NCBI GenBank assembly: GCA_000697055.1
Contig: JNDT01002300.1
Span: 62,001-126,000 of the forward strand
Reading direction: 5' to 3'
Length of the DNA stretch: 64,000 nucleotides
DNA from: Saksenaea vasiformis B4078
Lineage: Eukaryota; Mucoromycota; Mucoromycetes; Mucorales; Saksenaeaceae
Shown here: positions 9,684 through 51,939 of the stretch, piece after piece
How positions within the stretch are numbered: position 1 is the stretch's first letter
Layout of the letters: the number at the start of each line of letters is the position of its first letter
Position numbers and translations under genes: made by a program
The notes under the pieces: generated by a model
What the model saw: only the letters and a program-made list of their open reading frames with translations
Database searches by the model: none
Told to the model about the DNA's origin: nothing

Positions 9684-10075
9684 CTATTTTTCGTATATTT
9701 CCATGGCTTTGTCGATGTCTCTCTTTTCATCAAGATAAATATCTCCAAGCTTGAGTTGCGCTTCTTCATTTCCCTGATCAGCCCATTTCTCGTATATCTT
9801 AATTGCTTTGTCGATATCTTTCTTTTCATATCTGTATATATTTCCGAGCGTAGTTTGCGCCTTTTCATTTCCATGCTCAGCCCATTTCTCGTGCATTTCG
9901 ATTGCTTTGTCTATGTCTTTCTTTTCATCAAGGTAAATATTTCCAAGCCTAACTTGTGCTTCTTCGTTTCCTTCCCACGCCCATTTTTCATAGACTTCAA
10001 TTGCTTTGTCGATATCTTTCTTTTCACATCTGTAAATATGTCCGAGTTTGATTTGCGCATCTTGCTCTCCTTGAT
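9470..10075. repeat. 99-bp tandem repeat encoding 33-residue Sel1 units
   Basis: About six consecutive 99-bp units with strong nucleotide similarity (words such as ttgctttgtcgat and cttttcat recur each period), in contrast to the more diverged 108-bp units upstream. It is coding on the minus strand. It looks like a secondary expansion in which each unit lost three codons of the loop. Confidence 0.75.
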
Positions 10076-11982
10076 CGGCTGCTTTTTCGTACCACACAAT
10101 TGCTTTGCTGATGTCTCTCTTCACCGAGTACAAGTTGCTGTAAATATCTCCAAGACGGGTTTGAGCAACCCAGCTACCTTTATGTGCTGCTTTTTCGTAA
10201 AATTTGATTGCTTTGCGAGTGTGTTGCATTATTCCATTTCCATATTCGTAAATATCCCCAAGGTTGATTTGGGCCATCCAACTTCCTTGATCAGCTGCTT
10301 CTTTGTACCATTCGATTGCTTTTCTTATGTCTTTTTTCACTCCGTCTGCATCGCGATATATATCTCCGAGTCTGATTTGTGCATCCGGACTTCCTTGATA
10401 TGCTGCTTTTTTATACCATTCAACTGCTTTGCTGACATCTTGGCTGACCCCGTATCCACATATGTACATATTTCCAAGTTTCATTTGCGCCAATCTACTT
10501 CCTTTGTCTGCTTCTTTTTGGAGTTGTTCGACTATTGTGACATGGTCACCCATCACCGTTATTATCTGGCGGTATTTCTCGCGGACGGAGTGTAAAACTC
10601 GTTCGTCGAAGACAATTTCATCGTTGTAACATTTATTTGAGCTATCCTTGTCTTCGTATACGTCTGCAAATCGGTCCTGATTACCTTCGCTTCTATGATC
10701 CATAGATTGTCCTTCGACGTCGCTATTGGTGATATCACCATGATCACTAGCATCTTCGTCACTGAATAGGGGACTAGCAGGTTCATTTTGCGCATTTCCA
10801 GGTCCACGATCTGCCATTCTGTCGTTGTAATGATACGAATCTTCCAAATCACGACTCGCATAATCTTTGTGACGTTCGTAGCCAGTATTCTCCTTATTTT
10901 TCTTATATTCTTTGCGAACTTCAACAAGCTGATCAAAGCTGCCACGGGAAAGCGTCTCATTGTATACTTCCTCCACTTGCAAACGTTCGTCGTCATCAAG
11001 AATGCTATAGATTGGCATCACGTCTTTGAACTGGATAATAGCTGGTTCAGATTTGGTAGTTTGTTTCCAATCTTTTATTCCCTCCACGAAAAATAACCCG
11101 GAATCACCACCTATTAAACTCATCAAACAATTGTAACGCATCAGTACTAGATGGTACCCATGATTTTCCAGTATCTGTGATTTTTGATTGCGTTTGTAAC
11201 GTTTTCCGCTATGTCATCGCTAGAGCAAACTTCTCTGTGCTCAGTTTCCGCTTCACACTCATCGCGAATCCCTGTGCCTTCTGCCTTACAAGCAAGCAAA
11301 CCGCCTACATCAGGAAATTGTTATTTTATGTCACATTCGTACGTATCTAGTGTACCAAGTAGAATCTTTGACGGGTAATAATATCCAAACCGTCCAAATG
11401 CGGTTTGCAGTGCTTCATATTTCTTCTGGTTGTTATATTCCTTCAAAGCATCTTGTACAGCTTGTTTGAAAATCGAAGTCGGTCTGAGAAGCTCGGGAGG
11501 CAGTTGCACCTAGTACAAACTTGTTAACTGTACTACCCATAAGACATCATTGCATCCTTACTTCTCCCCACGAAAAGTAAGAAACTGAGTATTCGAGTGC
11601 ATTATTCGAAAAGGGCTTCTGGTTCTCTTTACGTGCGCAACAACTACGTTCTGCAGCGATATCGTACACAGACTTTTCGCGGACGCTGTCATCAAGCAAC
11701 AATTTGTCCATGAAGAAATCGGCTTCGATCGTTTTCGTGCATGTATATTCCACGAACGATTCCTCACAAGGATACTCACGAAGAAGCCTTAGTAAATTAT
11801 TCTTCCCTGGTCCAATTTCCATTGCAGTGTATTCAGCAGTATATCCGTCAAAATGAAGACCTCGTGTGCATCGATTGAAAACATCGTATGCCAAAAACGT
11901 GCTGAACTTTGGGAAGTGTTAGAGACCTGTAAATACAAAACGAGAACAGGTCTTTTACATTAGGCAATAATTTCTTTTCCAT
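9684..11982 (-). CDS. Sel1-repeat protein, truncated by an in-frame stop
   Basis: The C-terminal half is an array of Sel1 (TPR-like) repeats: four 36-residue units (pattern AQxRLGDIY...DGVKKD...KAIEWYKEAADQGS) followed by shorter 33-residue units (EKKDIDKAIEIYEKWADQGNEE). Sel1 arrays are protein-interaction scaffolds; the partner is unknown. The N-terminal part spans several short exons. YFSWGE joins VQLPPELLRP across 11517-11572, YYYPSKILLG joins GLLACKAEG after a donor near 11354, and YWKIMG joins GDSGLFFVEGI near 11110. I do not recognise this N-terminal domain. The proposed first exon is the ATG at 11982 (MEKKLLPN) with an acceptor CCCAAAG near 11916; this 5' end is weakly supported. The protein stops at 9684 although the repeat frame continues. 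Confidence 0.68.
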
Positions 11983-25731: not shown

Positions 25732-27032
25732 TTAAGCATAAGCTGCAGTAGCAGTTCTTTGCTGTTGTTGATGCAATGGGATCTGGAAGCCCTCACGCTT
25801 CAATTTTTCGGCGTGTACACCGCCCATGAAGTCTTCAAACAAGTACTCTGTGTCTTGCGGACCGCCTTTAGCCTCTGGATGGAACTGGACGGAGAAGATG
25901 GGCTTGGTTTCGTGCTGGATACCTTCATTCGAGCCATCGTTGGCGTTGACGAACATGCGCTTCCATCCCTTGGGCATGACATTGTCCTGGAGGGCATAGC
26001 CATGGTTCTGAGATGTGATGTAGCAAAGACCAGTGTCGACGTGCAATGCAGGTTGGTTATGACCACGGTTTCCGAAAGGCAGTTTGTATACATCCAGACC
26101 AGCTGCCATGCCGAGCAACAAGTTGCCCATGCAGATACCGAAGATGGGCTTGTTGAAGTTATCGATGGCCACACGCAGATGCTTGATTGTCTCGGTACAC
26201 ATGACTGGGCTTCCGGGACCGTTGGAGATGAAGAGACCATCGAACTGGTCAGCTACTTGATTGAAATCGTAATCGTGGGGCAGTACAGTGACATTTGCGC
26301 CACGCTTGGTCAAACAGCGGATGATGTTTTGTTTCACACCACAATCGACAACAGCAATCTTGACATCTCCTGAGCTGTTGTAGTGGAGCGGTACTTTAGT
26401 GGAAACCTTAGCGACCAAGTTCTCGGCATTGGGATCGGGGAATGTGCTTGCAGCTTCTGCATCGCCCACGACGATCTGGCTTAGAGTGGATCCTTGCTCT
26501 CGCAATAGATGGGTGACGGCTCTGGTATCAACACCAGAGATAGCGGGAACGTCGAAACGTTTGCACCAATCACCGAGAGATTCGACGGCGGTCCAATGGG
26601 AGTACTGGGTGGCATAGTCGTTGACAATAATACCTGAGACCTGGATGCGATCGGATTCGAAATGTTTGTAAAGACCAAATTCATCCTTGGTTTGACCAGG
26701 AACGCCATAGTTGCCTGTATAGGAAATACATAGGTGTTAGTGTGAATGATGCTATGATAATAATAAATGACGTTACCAATCAAAGGTTGAGTAAATACAA
26801 GAATTTGTCCAGTGTAGGATGGATCCGTCATGGACTCGGGATAACCGACAAGAGAAGTAGTGAATACAGCTTCACCAAAGGTAGATTTTTCAGCACCAAA
26901 GGATGTTCCCTGGAACACTTGACCAGATTTCAATTTCAGGGCAGCAGAGGTAGAAACGGCGGCAGTTGTGGAGAAAGAACGCTGGCGGATGCCGGCGCGA
27001 AGAGCAGATTGAATGGATTTAGATAAGAACAT
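25732..27032 (-). CDS. CPA1: Carbamoyl-phosphate synthase small (glutaminase) subunit, arginine pathway
   Basis: It hydrolyses glutamine and feeds ammonia to the large subunit to make carbamoyl phosphate for arginine. The N-terminus ([20 protein letters not shown]) is a mitochondrial presequence, as in filamentous fungi. The small-subunit N-domain ([30 protein letters not shown]) runs into a class-I glutamine amidotransferase: FISNGPGSP, the nucleophile Cys in [23 protein letters not shown] and the catalytic His and Glu in QFHPEAKGG. The residue after GICMG is Asn where many members have His-Gln. One intron (about 26713-26777) follows IGN. The stop is at 25732, 150 bp from the stop of convergent dynactin p150. 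Translation is probably controlled by the upstream ORF at 27048-27184. Confidence 0.95.
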
Positions 27033-27047
27033 GTTCAGATGAGTGAA

Positions 27048-27184
27048 TTAAAAGTTTCCAGAGGACTTCCAGACTGTTGTAAACAAAGCAGTATTAGTAT
27101 TCTGATCAATCAGTTACTGACATCAAACTTACTATGATCGCAAATATAATCGGCTGAGCACTTTTCGAATGCGTGAATGTACAT
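27048..27184 (-). CDS. Upstream ORF encoding an arginine attenuator peptide, split by an intron
   Basis: An ATG at 27182-27184 opens a 17-codon exon that ends after one base of the next codon at 27133. A consensus intron (GTAAGT...TTTACAACAG, 27074-27132) removes 59 bp, and exon 2 runs to a TAA at 27048-27050. The spliced product is 25 residues; its C-terminal part reads ADYICDHIWKSSGNF. This matches the DY(I/L)xDH(I/L)W core of the arginine attenuator peptide upstream of CPA1 in yeast and arg-2 in Neurospora, including the Asp at position 12 needed for arginine-dependent ribosome stalling. The stop lies 15 nt before the CPA1 start. Without splicing, the frame would end at an early TGA or TAA in the intron and lose the core. 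Splicing is inferred from consensus sites. Confidence 0.88.
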
Positions 27185-30104
27185 AAGCAGGACTTGACGT
27201 CTCTCTTGTTGTTAGAAAGGTAGGATGAGAGACAAAAGGCAGAGAGCTAGAGAGGGCAATAACTTCAGAGTTGTTTTTCTCTCCTTAAAGTGTTAAACAC
27301 GAGATAACAGAACAAAATGAAAAGATATGTCATTTTTATAGGGACCAGGAAATGAAAATGGGACTGCTCGATTTAATGACACATCCTGAATCGACGGGGT
27401 TCGGGTTCATTATCATCTCCAAGATGATTGGACGATCAAATTTCTTATCTCCCATAACGCCATGGGCGCGAACTATATTCCGTATAAAGAGCGAACCCCG
27501 GATCTAATGTGTCGTTTCACTACAAACAACATTCACTTTTCCCAGTTACAATCTGGCCATTGTTACCACTGTTTGAGATGCATAACTAACACTAAATATC
27601 TCTTTTTTACAATTGATTCTTTTTAGCTACTTGGCTTTCCTAATTCCACTCCTGGGCATAAGCGCATCATGATTAAGATATAAAACCTCAGTTGCAAAAT
27701 GAATAAAACATGTGATGAAAGCTTGATTATGCTATTCATTGGGAGACAATAGAAGTCGATCAAGTTGGAATGCCAACTGACATCAAGCACAAACCAAACT
27801 GAGCTTGGACTTCTTCAACACATGCTCGTTGTCCAGATTACAGAAAAATATTTTGGTATCACATCGTTGGATAATAAGCTTCTACACAAGACCTTGTTTG
27901 CTTCAGTGAATAAGACGTCATTTGAGGCGCCAGTAACGCCTTGATATAAAGTTCTTTAAATCTTTTGTCAGACAAATAGATGGAACAAGCCAATGAGAAA
28001 AATCTCTCTCGTCTTTGCCTGAGACACGGGCGCATGTCCTATGCTTTTATACAGTGATTTAAAGTTTGCTTGACATGCGGATGCAGTGGATGTACCGAAT
28101 TCTGCATACGGCTTTATGCCGCCTAATAGCAACCGTTGATGACTGAGGGTCCCTGATCTGCGTCAGACCAAAACATCTTTGTATGACATCTATTCTGGGG
28201 TGTACAGAATAAGAAGTACTTTTCTTTCCTTCAGTTGATTGTACGCAAGATAGAGTCTTGCTGCAGTCCACCAACTGCGATTCTAAAATCAGACGCTAAA
28301 TAAACCTCCCTTGTTGTCATAGGGGTTAACAAGGTTGAACTATGACTTTATCGCTGTTCATCGCCAATTCCCGCAGCCTTTGCTTTGGAGTCTAACAGAG
28401 GTGGCAATAGCAACGAATATCCACCGCCACTTCATTTTGTCACAGTAAAAGATAACAGTGCAGAAAAAAAAGGAAGATAAAGCTGAAGAGATTAATAAAG
28501 TTCATCAAGCCATTGCAGATGAGAGCGCCAACTCTTACGTGATAACTACTCAGTCATCAGAATTTTCTTTTTCTGTTCTTCAGGAAGAAACGATAAGCAT
28601 ATACAGCGACGCAGCGTTGTAAAACGAACTTTCAATACAGCTGAGGGGTGGAGTGATGATAAGCACGGATAAGTGCAAAAAGAAAAAAAAAATTTTTTTC
28701 TACTTGCTATACGCACGTCAGAGACCGCCATTTACTTTTGTTCATACTAATGGCGGATGCTGCCTGAGTCTTGAGTGCCATGTTGTTTTAAGTACATCTA
28801 ACAAGATGACGACCAAATTGTAACCTGCTCGAAAGGTGACAACTTTACACCGTAGATGGAACGGTCATCGGAACACGGAACGCTGAACTAGTTCCATTTC
28901 GCACGCCATTGCGGACACTTAAAACCAAACGGCTAATGTTTGCTGCCATTCCGTTCCGAATCACCAGCAAAGGAGGAAAGACCTTCACAAGAAGATACAA
29001 GGCTTAACAGAAACAGTACGTGCCTGTAGTAACTGGCATCCAAGGGGGAAGTTGATAAGACAAAACAGGTATGGTCTTGCTGTGTAACTCTTCTGATTGG
29101 CACTCCGTTAGCAGCCAATGCTTGATAACCCGATGAATTTTTTTGTTTCTTTTCCTCTCTCTCTCTACAGGCAATCTTTTTGAGGGGTCTAAACAGAACC
29201 AATCAGAAGGACACGGAACAGATACATTTGTCTTTTTTCCGTTAGTGATAAGATCACTACAAAATTAAGAGAGGGAGCTTACTATAGTTTTCCTTGATCT
29301 CTTTTTCCACTACTTTTAAGAAGATCTCTTCAGTAGTTGCCTATCTATAGTATTTATATACAACGAAATGAAAAAACAAAACAAAATAAGAGTTGATCGG
29401 AAAGGGGGCTAGTTTGGGGGAAGAAGGGGGCCCTAGAGAACACAAAAAGAGAGAGCGACCTTTTTTTCTGGTTCGGGATTTCCGAAATCATGTCCGGGTG
29501 CAGGTATTATATATATACACACACAACCCGTACCCATGTAACAGGTCCAAGGAAATACAAATTTCATGTGAAGCTATAGTCGTTTCTTATATATCAATAA
29601 ATCCTTGGATGTTTCTCGTTATACAAGCAAAAGAGATCCTTCTCTATTCTTGTAATAACGTCGCTGACTCTTTGTGAAACGTCACCCCTCTTCTCTCTCT
29701 GTTAGATGTCGCTCCGACTTTTTCGTGCATCCGCCGGCCTTTCACACATAAACTTCTCTCTCTCTTTCTCTCTCTTAACTTCTTTTTTCTTTTTCCTCAA
29801 AAAGAAAAAAACTTCTTTCGAGTTGAGCGCCGCAGTTCTGTCTCTCTCTCTCTCTTTATTCCCTTTGGTTTTTATTCTTTCTCTTTTTTAAGGTATGGCT
29901 TAATCGCCTGACAGCAGGGTGGCTGACTTGGTGAACCGCACCGCAGGAAGGTCTTCTTTTTTTTGTTTTGTTTTTTAGTCTGGGTCGGTTCATCCAAGCT
30001 TTTTACACAATCTCCACTGTACGGAACTAGAACTTTTTCCTGGTAACAAGAAAAGGACCGCCGTCCTGCATGGCGCCATTACTGACATCCCCCCGTTGCT
30101 AGTC
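27185..30104. other. Divergent intergenic region between CPA1 and kinesin-1
   Basis: 2.9 kb with no recognisable gene. The CPA1 promoter occupies the left end. The right 400 bp (about 29690-29890) is strongly CT-rich on the plus strand, typical of a fungal promoter or 5' leader for the kinesin gene. Short frames at 28059-28274 and 28933-29202 have no recognisable features. Confidence 0.5.
27333..27340 (-). promoter_or_regulatory. Candidate TATA box for CPA1
   Basis: TATAAAAA on the minus strand about 150 bp upstream of the upstream-ORF start. The position is reasonable for a fungal core promoter, but AT-rich matches are common here. Confidence 0.35.
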
Positions 30105-33100
30105 ATGTCCGGAAATAACATCAAGGTTGTGTGTCGCTTCAGACCACAAAACAAACTAGAAATAAGAGAAGGCGGCGTTCCTATCATTGATATTCACGAT
30201 GAAGGTACCGGGCTTGCACTTAAGGTACGTTCCGATTTGCGTTGCTCACGATTTGCCTGTGTCTGAGTTGTTTTGCCTCAATTTTTTAGGGCAAAGAAGC
30301 CAATCAGAACTACTCCTTTGACAAGGTTTTTGGCATGGAAACGAAGCAACAAGAGATTTTCGAATACTCTATTAAATCGATTGTTGATGGTAAAATACAT
30401 ACCTATTGGCCCTAGGGTTCCATTCCTCTGATCCTTGCTGTAGATGTCGTGGCTGGTTACAACGGTACCGTCTTCGCTTACGGTCAGACTGGTTCCGGTA
30501 AAACATTCACAATGATGGTAAGGTACAAGGAGTTTAAGAGATCATTTTTTGTGTACTAACTACTCCCATCCTTTGTTAGGGTTCTGACATCGACGACGTC
30601 GAGAACAAGGGTATCATTCCACGTATTATTGAACAAATCTTCACAAGCATCGTTATGGCTCCTGCCAACATGGAGTTTACGGTCAAAGTGTCTTATATGG
30701 AAATTTACATGGAAAAAGTTCGCGACTTGTTAAACCGTAAGACAAAGATAAGGAAAAAAACACCAACGCTGATCCCCTACTCTAGCGAGTCAGGACAATC
30801 TCCCTATCCACGAAGATAAAGCAAAAGGTGTTTACGTCAAAGGTCTATTGGAAGTATACGTTTCGTCCACAGAAGAAGTGTACGAGGTGATGAAAAGCGG
30901 TGGAAATAACCGTGTCGTTGCTTATACAAGTAAGACGAGGAGATTGGCTTGCGATAAAAAAAATTAAAAACTGATGACTTATGAATAGACATGAACGCTG
31001 AGAGTTCTCGAAGTCACTCCATCGTACTGGTCACTATCACACAAAAGAACCTGGATACCGGTGCAGCAAAAAGCGGCAAGCTTTACCTGGTCGATCTTGC
31101 TGGTTCTGAAAAGGTTTTTAGTACAACCTCTACTAAAGAAAGGCTATTAAACCATCGTGTGTAGGTTGGCAAAACCGGTGCTTCAGGTCAAACGTTGGAG
31201 GAAGCCAAGAAAATTAACAAATCCTTAACCGCACTGGGCATGGTTATCAACGCGCTTACAGATGGAAAGGTAAATGGAGATATAACTCAAACTCGAGATA
31301 ACACCTTTGCATAGTCAAGCCACGTTCCATACAGAGATTCAAAATTGACACGTATTCTTCAAGAGTCTCTTGGTGGTAACTCCCGAACAACATTGATTAT
31401 CAACTGTTCTCCTTCATCGTACAACGAGGCCGAAACCATTTCTACCCTGCGCTTTGGTGCCCGTGCCAAGACCATCAAGAACAAGGCCAAGGTGAATGCA
31501 GACCTTTCGCCTGCCGAGCTGAAGGCGCTGTTGAAAAAAGTTAAATCCGAGACCGTCTCCTACCGACAGTATATTACTGCGCTGGAAGGAGAAGTCCAGA
31601 TCTGGCGTTCCGGTGGTAAAGTCCCTCAAATCCAGTGGGCCACCATGGACAAAGCGGCCAGTGGCGAGGCTGCGCCGCCGACATCGCCGCAGACTCCCAT
31701 TCCCGCCTTCAAATCGCTTCCCGATGATTCAAGCCCCGCCACGCCAACCATTGTGCTTGAAAAAGACGAAAGAGATGAATTTATGAAACGTGAAAATGAG
31801 TTGGTGGACCAGATCGCAGAAAAGGTGATTAAAAAAATTCAGTCGCTTGATCAATTACTGACAATCCACATGATCATTAGGAAACGGAACTAGCCAACCG
31901 AGAAAAGCATCTGGAAGCTTTGCAAGAGGAGCTTGCTTTCCTGAAAGAGCAAGAAAAGCAAATCACAAATGAAAACAAGGAGATGACGACGGAACTGAGT
32001 GATGTTAAGCTTCAATTGCAGAAAGTCTCCTACGAAAGCAAAGAAAGTGCTATCACCATCGATTCCTTGAAGGAAGCCAACCAGGACCTGATGGCTGAGT
32101 TGGAAGACCTCAAGAAGCAACTTGCACAGGTCCGCAATACTCAAAAGGACCAGATGGATGAGGAGAAGTCTAAGAAGAAGGCAGTCAAGATGGCGGAAAT
32201 GATGGCTTCGTTCGATGCATCTGTAAGTAGAAAGTTTTAAACCTGTATGGCGCAGCTCATAATTATCACAGGACGCTATTTCGGAGAAAGAGAAGCAGAT
32301 CCGTGACGCAATCCAGAAACTCGGACCTGACTCAGCCAGTCCGCTGACCGAAGACGAGCTTGTCAAGTTACGACAAGAGCTTGCCGAATCCAAGGCGTTG
32401 TTGGACCAACATGAAGTTACAATTAAAAACTTGAGTCACGAAAAGGATGCGTTGACAGCTAAACGCTCTGACTTGGAGATTCGCTTCAGCACTTTGGAAG
32501 CCGAATATGAAGAGTTGTTAGACAAGACAATCGCCGACGAGGAGATGGCCGTCAAACGCAGCTCAGACATCACAGAAACCATCTCGGAGCTCAAGGTAAG
32601 ACATAGGAACCAAATCTTCCATGTTTTCTGACGCAACCCCCTTTCCTCCTTTTTTTTTTGCTTTTTGTGTCTTTTTTTTATTCCACCTTAGGGCAAACTT
32701 GAGAACGAATATGCAGCAAAGAAGGAGATGCAGCAGAAAGAGATTGAAGATCTCAAGAAAGAATTAGAACGTAAGGATGAAGAGCAGAGCAAACTCAGTA
32801 GCGCCATGGTGGAGTTGAAGATAGCCAATGAGAAACTCCAGGTAAAACAAAGCATGCTACGACTTTTAAATTCATCTATTGTTTTAGAATGCGTTGGCAT
32901 CTCAACCAAAGACAGCTGATGCTGTTAGCGAGAAGGAGAAAGACCTTGAGAAGATGCGCAAATCCATGGGCGAACAATTGGCCTATTTCGAGGTCATGAA
33001 GAAGAGACTGATGCGCGATTTGCAAGCCCGCTGCGAAAAAGTCGTTGAGCTGGAGATGTCTTTAGAAGAAACCCGAGAGCAATACAATAATGTTCTCAGA

Positions 33101-50495: not shown

Positions 50496-51549
50496 CTAAT
50501 AACGGGTGTTCCCGCCATGCGCTTTAATTACTTCCTGACATCTTCTATGCATTGATGCAACTAAATTCTGACAGACACTCTGTGGTATTGCTCGCCATTC
50601 CTCCAACAAGGCCGCTTCCAGTTGCTCAGGGTTGTTGATCACGTGTCTTCTCTTTGCCAAACGGCGCTCAAGTTCATCCCACAGATGTTCAATTGGGTTT
50701 AGGTCAGGACTTTGTGCCGGCCAGTATGGCATTACAGAGATACATTGATCCTTTTTCCATTGCTTTGCATCTTTTCCCGTATGGCAAGAAGCTCCATCCT
50801 CTTGGAAGATATAATCATGAAGTTATTTTCCTCGAGGTAAGGAAGCAACTTCTTGCCCAAAACGTTGGTGTAGACGGCTTGATTCGTTGTGCCTGGCACT
50901 GGTGTAGCAGGCCCAACTCCTCTAGCACTAAAACACCCCATAACATCACTGAACGCCCATACTTCACCGTTCCCTTAATATTCTGAGGATGCAGGAACTC
51001 TCCACTTTTGCGCAAGACGCGCTCTCGACTTCCATTTCCCAAAACGCGGAATCGGGATTCATCAGACCAGATAACCTTTGCCCACTGATCATCGGTCCAA
51101 TCTAGGTGCTCCTTGGCCCATGCAAGTCTTGCTTTCTTATGTCTTTCAAGCAGTAGCGGCTTTCTGGTTGGTCGACAGGAAGAAAAACCAAGCTCATGCA
51201 CGGTTTCCTGAAATGTTCGCAATGAAACTTCCATGCACGTAGCTGAGAATGTCGCGTGATGAAAGGTCAAAAGGGCACGCGGATTGTCACGGATGTCGCG
51301 TTCAATGAGACGTTTCGAGCGATCCGTTATCTTCTTTGGTCTTCCCTTCCTTGGTTTTGACGCAGTTGTACCGGTTTCTTTGACGTTCTTAATAATACGC
51401 CGAACGGTCGATCGCCCAAGTCCTCTTGACTTGGCGATTTCACCGAAGGACCATCCTGCCTCCCTCATGCCATAGATCATTGCACGTTCTTGCTCTGAGA
51501 TTTCAGCGTTTTGCTTTTGGCTGTTGTTAGTGATACACTCAAGTGTCAT
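50496..51549 (-). pseudogene. Tc1/mariner-type transposase, two frameshifts
   Basis: The N-terminus has a homeodomain-like helix-turn-helix (ERAMIYGMREAGWSFGEIAK, LGRSTVRRIIKNV), then VIWSDESRF with the first catalytic Asp, GCFSARGVGPATPV, QEDGASCHTGKDAKQW with the second Asp, and SPDLNPIEHLWDELE with the final Glu (35 residues between Asp and Glu by my count). The protein is spread over three frames: one base is missing in a G run near 50940 (WGC reads WGV) and another shift lies near 50830. All catalytic residues survive. No terminal inverted repeats or TA duplication could be recognised. The 5' start is the ATG at 51549. Confidence 0.9.
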
Positions 51550-51939
51550 ATTGAGAACTTAGAGGAAAAAGAGAGAAAATCCTCTGTTATTTACATGCGT
51601 TTATGTTACTACGTCTATGCATTATCCATGGCCTTATGCCTCTCAGTACAATCAAATTTAATATATTATTCTTTGTTCATTTATTCTTTCTGTACCCCAT
51701 AGCCTCTTCATATTCGTTTCTCGTAGACCTTTCAACTTATGTCCCATAATCTCTTCCATTGCATAATCTCTTCTTTCCCCATAGAAAATCAAGCACACGA
51801 CGCGAAGCGAGCACCACGGCTAGCAGGATAATATATTGAAGCAAAAAAAAATCGCGCATAGCAACAGGCTTTTGTTTCATTTATCAAAGCAATCGCAACC
51901 AGAAATTTTTATTATGTAAAGCTTATTCAAAACCCAGTG
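51550..51939. other. Non-coding gap right of the transposase
   Basis: Contains the expected position of the right transposon end and the 3' region of the Bud22-like gene. I see no inverted repeat or gene. Confidence 0.4.

Follow-up and report, generated by a model that had tools for sequence, protein, structure and literature searches.

The leader of CPA1, the gene encoding the arginine-specific CPS small subunit, in Saksenaea vasiformis raises two connected questions: does it encode an arginine attenuator peptide (AAP), and does the intron that divides the arrest core of that peptide act as a switch of arginine control? Both had been proposed in a sequence-only reading of the window, by which we mean the whole stretch of 64,000 nucleotides that was analysed. 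From the evidence below we consider it very probable that this Mucorales CPA1 leader carries a functional AAP upstream open reading frame (uORF), that it is completed by ordinary splicing, and that the intron does not serve as a switch.

Identity of the CPA1 gene

CPA1 lies on the minus strand of the window, as do all features of the gene and its leader that are given below. It consists of exon 1 (26777..27032), recognised by homology and by the family profile, an intron of 62 nt (26715..26776), placed by reading frame and homology, and exon 2 (25732..26714), which was delimited by the reading frame and includes the stop. The gene ends at 25732 and its product of 412 amino acids scores 437.8 bits against TIGR01368 (CPS small subunit), for which the curated cut-off is 307.35. 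The protein start, MFLSKS, matches the start of P0001. The closest relatives among the best 120 of 7999 scored homologues are those of Apophysomyces (89% and 87% identity), followed within the same 120 by those of Phycomyces and Cunninghamella (78%); in none of these 120 is an AAP fused onto the annotated CPA1 protein within the first 150 residues.

Elsewhere in the genome, small-subunit matches were found only on contig C653, where they occur together with a CPS large-subunit match and therefore belong to a CAD-like gene, and a separate CPS large subunit (CPA2) is encoded on contig C269. Because of this separate CPA2 and the CAD-like gene, the CPS gene of the window is most likely the one for the arginine-specific enzyme, i.e. 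the usual target of AAP control. We looked for a second CPA1 copy as an internal comparison and found none in the genome, all remaining matches being those of the CAD-like gene. The motif TGASTCA does not occur upstream of CPA1 between positions 27033 and 28900 of the window. Open frames that were labelled by eye in other parts of the window include one that looks like the opening part of a gene for a kinesin motor (29979-30266), a Tc1/mariner-type transposase-like frame (50815-51558) and a tandem-repeat frame that is Sel1-type-like (9684-11213).

The upstream reading frame and its match to the AAP

Upstream of CPA1, a uORF of 78 nt including its TAA can be read across a predicted intron; it has 25 codons and its product is MYIHAFEKCSADYICDHIWKSSGNF. 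Exon 1 of this uORF (27133..27184) starts with the ATG at 27184 and holds 17 codons, MYIHAFEKCSADYICDH, and base 1 of the codon for Ile-18. The putative intron (27074..27132; 59 nt; GTAAGT...ACAACAG) splits that codon as A/TC and contains a branch-site-like TACTAAT at 27093..27099 (position counted from the intron sequence), a 6/7 match to TACTAAC. Exon 2 (27048..27073) supplies the remainder of Ile-18, WKSSGNF and the TAA (stop codon 27050-27048), and is separated from the CPA1 ATG by a spacer of 15 nt (27033..27047), as read from the sequence. The claims that a spliced uORF of 25 codons stops 15 nt before the CPA1 ATG (27032) and that a 59-nt intron divides the Ile codon of DHIW thus both held, the former to the base and the latter with its ends at 27132 and 27074. 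Further upstream, a sequence match to TATAAA (27335..27340) may be a promoter element, and the first ATG downstream of 27333 is that of the uORF. Position -3 is C at the uORF ATG and A at the CPA1 ATG, that is, a weak uORF start and a better main start, an arrangement that would allow leaky scanning as far as start contexts can indicate.

The uORF product aligns in register with PDB 2xl1 (title: arginine attenuator peptide), which we take to be the AAP of Neurospora crassa arg-2. Residues 9-21 of 2xl1 read TSQDYLSDHLWRA, and D12, Y13, D16, H17 and W19 are identical in the uORF peptide. In the PDB search by E-value, 2xl1 ranks fourth at 0.43, below three chains of SART3, which is unrelated, and by E-value alone the peptide of 25 residues has no significant PDB match; the case for an AAP rests on the register, the position and a shuffle control, and not on this E-value. 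Six columns are invariant across the peptides of the window, Neurospora and yeast, and residues 2-10 of the window peptide have little in common with the other two.

For the chance test, every ATG-started uORF of 13-60 amino acids in the 401-nt CPA1 leader, read either without splicing or across a single GT-AG intron of 45-120 nt, was scored (BLOSUM62) against the 13-residue core of the Neurospora AAP, with 3000 dinucleotide shuffles as control. The top score in the leader was 46 and came from the 25-codon spliced uORF; the best score among the shuffles was 33, and none of the 3000 reached 46. If spliced, the uORF also has the length and position of an AAP (25 codons, where about 24-25 are expected, with the stop 15 nt upstream of the main start), its core contains both the Asp that is essential (residue 12 in Neurospora, residue 13 in yeast) and D-H-x-W, and it lies ahead of the gene for an arginine-specific CPS small subunit. 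By all sequence tests applied we judge it to be a genuine AAP uORF, of which we infer the stalling, and the motif, the register, the length, the gene context and the contexts of the two start codons give good support to the AAP identity that had been proposed for the peptide. A search of the whole genome with the degenerate pattern D-Y-x-x-D-H gave seven matches, one of which is this uORF, as compared to three for the reversed control. The other six were rejected as AAP sites, as none reaches the core W in unspliced reading; the matches L006, L007 and L008 sit inside open frames that exceed 150 codons.

The uORF intron and the alternative explanations

Between the uORF ATG and the CPA1 ATG there are 18 GT-AG pairs that are at least 40 nt apart. 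Only the pair 27132/27074 yields DHIW, and its donor and acceptor signals are, by eye, the best among the 18. For comparison with this intron we took 21 others from the genome: 20 that were anchored by homology, from CPA2, CAD, UPF2, MAGO, actin and actin-related genes, and the CPA1 intron, which was placed by reading. Two intron catalogues generated automatically for the window were dropped as unreliable and the homology-anchored set was used; in this set the site pair was unique for four of the 20 anchored introns and the choice leaned on consensus for the other 16, which makes the comparison a rough one. The comparison introns measure 46-76 nt in 20 of 21 cases and 149 nt in one; a GTAAGT donor is found in 3 of the 21 and a branch match of at least 6/7 likewise in 3 of the 21. 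With its GTAAGT donor, its 6/7 branch match and its 59 nt, the uORF intron falls inside the comparison range for both length and signals. The exon side of its donor (ATA) is poorer than the usual AG, and the donor is not extremely strong. The intron looks ordinary rather than weak, and most likely it is removed constitutively, without acting as a switch.

The sequence-only reading had proposed intron retention as a possible off-switch for arginine repression, and one part of that argument follows directly from the sequence: the unspliced uORF reads MYIHAFEKCSADYICDHSKFDVSN, lacks Ile-18 and Trp-19 and stops at 27112-27110, after 24 codons and 77 nt ahead of the CPA1 ATG, and unspliced RNA is thus unable to encode the whole peptide. 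The shortened peptide would presumably be inactive. Regulated retention, or the use of a second donor at 27117, might in this manner yield a CPA1 mRNA that no longer responds to arginine. The second donor-like site, GTAACT (27112..27117), would with the acceptor at 27074 give an intron of 44 nt and add SKFDV to the peptide between DH and IW; the GTAA donors at 27132 and 27117 are 15 nt apart, each follows an A, and they share the same phase within the uORF. That splicing can set the presence of a uORF is described for the SAM decarboxylase mRNA of N. crassa in the available text of PMC5640933. In addition, the best of four separately folded pieces forms a hairpin in which the donor and the branch region could base-pair. 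This hairpin is weak, however (z -1.18, equalled by 27 of 200 shuffles), and it was rejected as a regulator since the folding is no better than that of shuffles: the z-score is +1.49 for the leader, where the folding is equalled or bettered by 187 of 200 shuffles, +0.50 for the intron alone and +0.96 for the intron with its flanks (CPA1 intron: -0.44). The RNA family search returned one snoRNA match (19.8 bits against a gathering score of 48; E-value 0.47), which was dismissed. The alternative intron of 44 nt, moreover, is shorter than all 21 comparison introns (at least 46 nt), and neither the weak splice sites nor the masking structure that one would look for in a retention switch were found in the 21-intron comparison and the folding. 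Given an intron of ordinary length and signals, we regard a splicing switch as unlikely, and the proposed off-switch did not find support.

Somewhat less probable again is a relic or constitutive uORF, from which an AAP-like peptide would be translated in a species that has lost arginine sensing. The N-terminal part of the peptide, which is unlike that of yeast and Neurospora, could be read in this way, but drift would be expected to erode D12, Y13, D16, H17 and W19 as well as the frame across the intron, and these are all intact. We give hardly any credence to a chance resemblance, in which the spliced uORF would not exist and the match would be a coincidence. The E-value of only 0.43 for 2xl1 is the point in its favour; against it stand the shuffles, none of which attains the core score, the canonical signals of the very intron that completes the motif, and the location of the uORF ahead of the gene that is under AAP control in other fungi.

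Proposed mechanism

For the preferred reading, a functional AAP uORF with ordinary splicing, we propose the following course of events. Removal of the 59-nt intron in the ordinary way would yield the complete AAP uORF, and at its weak AUG some scanning ribosomes would initiate and others would bypass it. Under high arginine, the ribosome would be arrested by its nascent peptide at the uORF stop codon, 15 nt short of the CPA1 AUG, and in this position would block later scanning ribosomes and so lower CPA1 expression; the stall would probably also expose the CPA1 mRNA to nonsense-mediated decay (NMD). Relative to the uORF stop, the exon junction within CPA1 is downstream, and the genome contains UPF2 and Mago family genes, with matches above the family cut-offs. 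We infer the transcription start and the splicing, and by parallel with known systems also the stalling, the arginine response and the decay. According to the available text of PMC7969011, arginine makes the AAP stall ribosomes at the stop of the uORF (with D13N as the mutant control), the yeast uORF start is weak, such that ribosomes leak past it, and stalling is tied to NMD.

A related string in the CPA2 leader

In the leader of CPA2 (L026, G000:C269:51754-51713, minus strand) an ATG-less frame reads ...LLDHIWSSGVRQNLY up to its stop, which precedes the CPA2 ATG by 21 nt. The DHIWSSG in this frame echoes the DHIWKSSG of the CPA1 peptide. The string is without D12 and Y13, its core score of 21 is inside the range of the shuffles (those of the CPA1 leader), and the best ATG-started form in the CPA2 leader scores 12 against the AAP core. 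Having a score within the shuffle range and no in-frame AUG, it was rejected as an AAP. Its placement is nevertheless odd, because DH[ILV]W is so rare in the window (one occurrence in 127,996 six-frame positions), and it may be due to chance, to a relic or to something else. A separate ATG-started uORF, MNCAFYLITSG..., overlaps the DHIWSSG string in another frame. Upstream of CPA2, at about 51942-51936 of C269, a TGACTCA, which is a Gcn4/CPC1-type site, was noticed by eye.

Relatives, literature and significance

A first scan of viral contigs for CPA1 DNA of relatives yielded none. A further scan of the viral contigs gave 14 loci with 37-54% identity, none of which was recognised as fungal CPA1; L068, the sole locus of those 14 to be inspected, had no AAP upstream that could be seen by eye. 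The scan of genome contigs gave 10 loci, all titled bacterial, and again none was recognised as fungal CPA1. In the literature searched we found no report of an AAP in Mucoromycota and no AAP core strings in print, and the available parts of that literature, to which the main survey (Hood 2007) does not belong, hold no mention of an intron inside an AAP uORF.

The presence in a Mucorales genome of an AAP that retains its essential residues would bear on the age of this sensor. Because the intron splits the arrest core, the peptide control would depend on splicing by construction, and the split core offers a natural test of whether the splicing state alters amino-acid feedback. Should AAP introns be common and constitutively spliced, they would represent a detail of gene structure that is useful to annotators, because such a uORF is invisible as a single intact ORF. 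Should the splicing switch be true after all, it would be built directly into the core with which a nascent-peptide sensor arrests the ribosome.

Comparison with known systems

The window peptide resembles the AAP of N. crassa arg-2 (2xl1) in length (25 versus 24 residues) and in D12-Y13-x-x-D16-H17-x-W19, which occupies identical positions in the two. It differs from the Neurospora peptide in the N-terminus and by having Cys-15 for Ser, and Ile for Leu at positions 14 and 18. With the AAP of Saccharomyces cerevisiae CPA1 it shares the gene, the length and DYI-x-DHIWK, at 42% identity in the alignment. To our knowledge, the yeast CPA1 uORF has no intron. A weak uORF start context is another common trait, reported for yeast in the available text of PMC7969011, and the yeast AAP appears there and in the available text of PMC8370653 as a peptide of 25 amino acids with a D13N mutant.

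In Cryptococcus, a basidiomycete, the CPA1 homologue CND01050 is likewise preceded by an AAP uORF; according to the available text of PMC7049704 this uORF is ribosome-occupied and the mRNA is 5-fold up in upf1-delta, an NMD response. The uORF of Toxoplasma ApiAT1, as described in the available text of PMC8370653, is arginine-responsive and also has a key Asp, but it is 33 amino acids long and controls a transporter, and its authors see a possible convergence of function. In the leader of N. crassa SAM decarboxylase, too, splicing bears on uORFs: no AAP is present there and alternative splicing removes uORFs (available text of PMC5640933), whereas in the CPA1 leader of S. vasiformis splicing would complete one.
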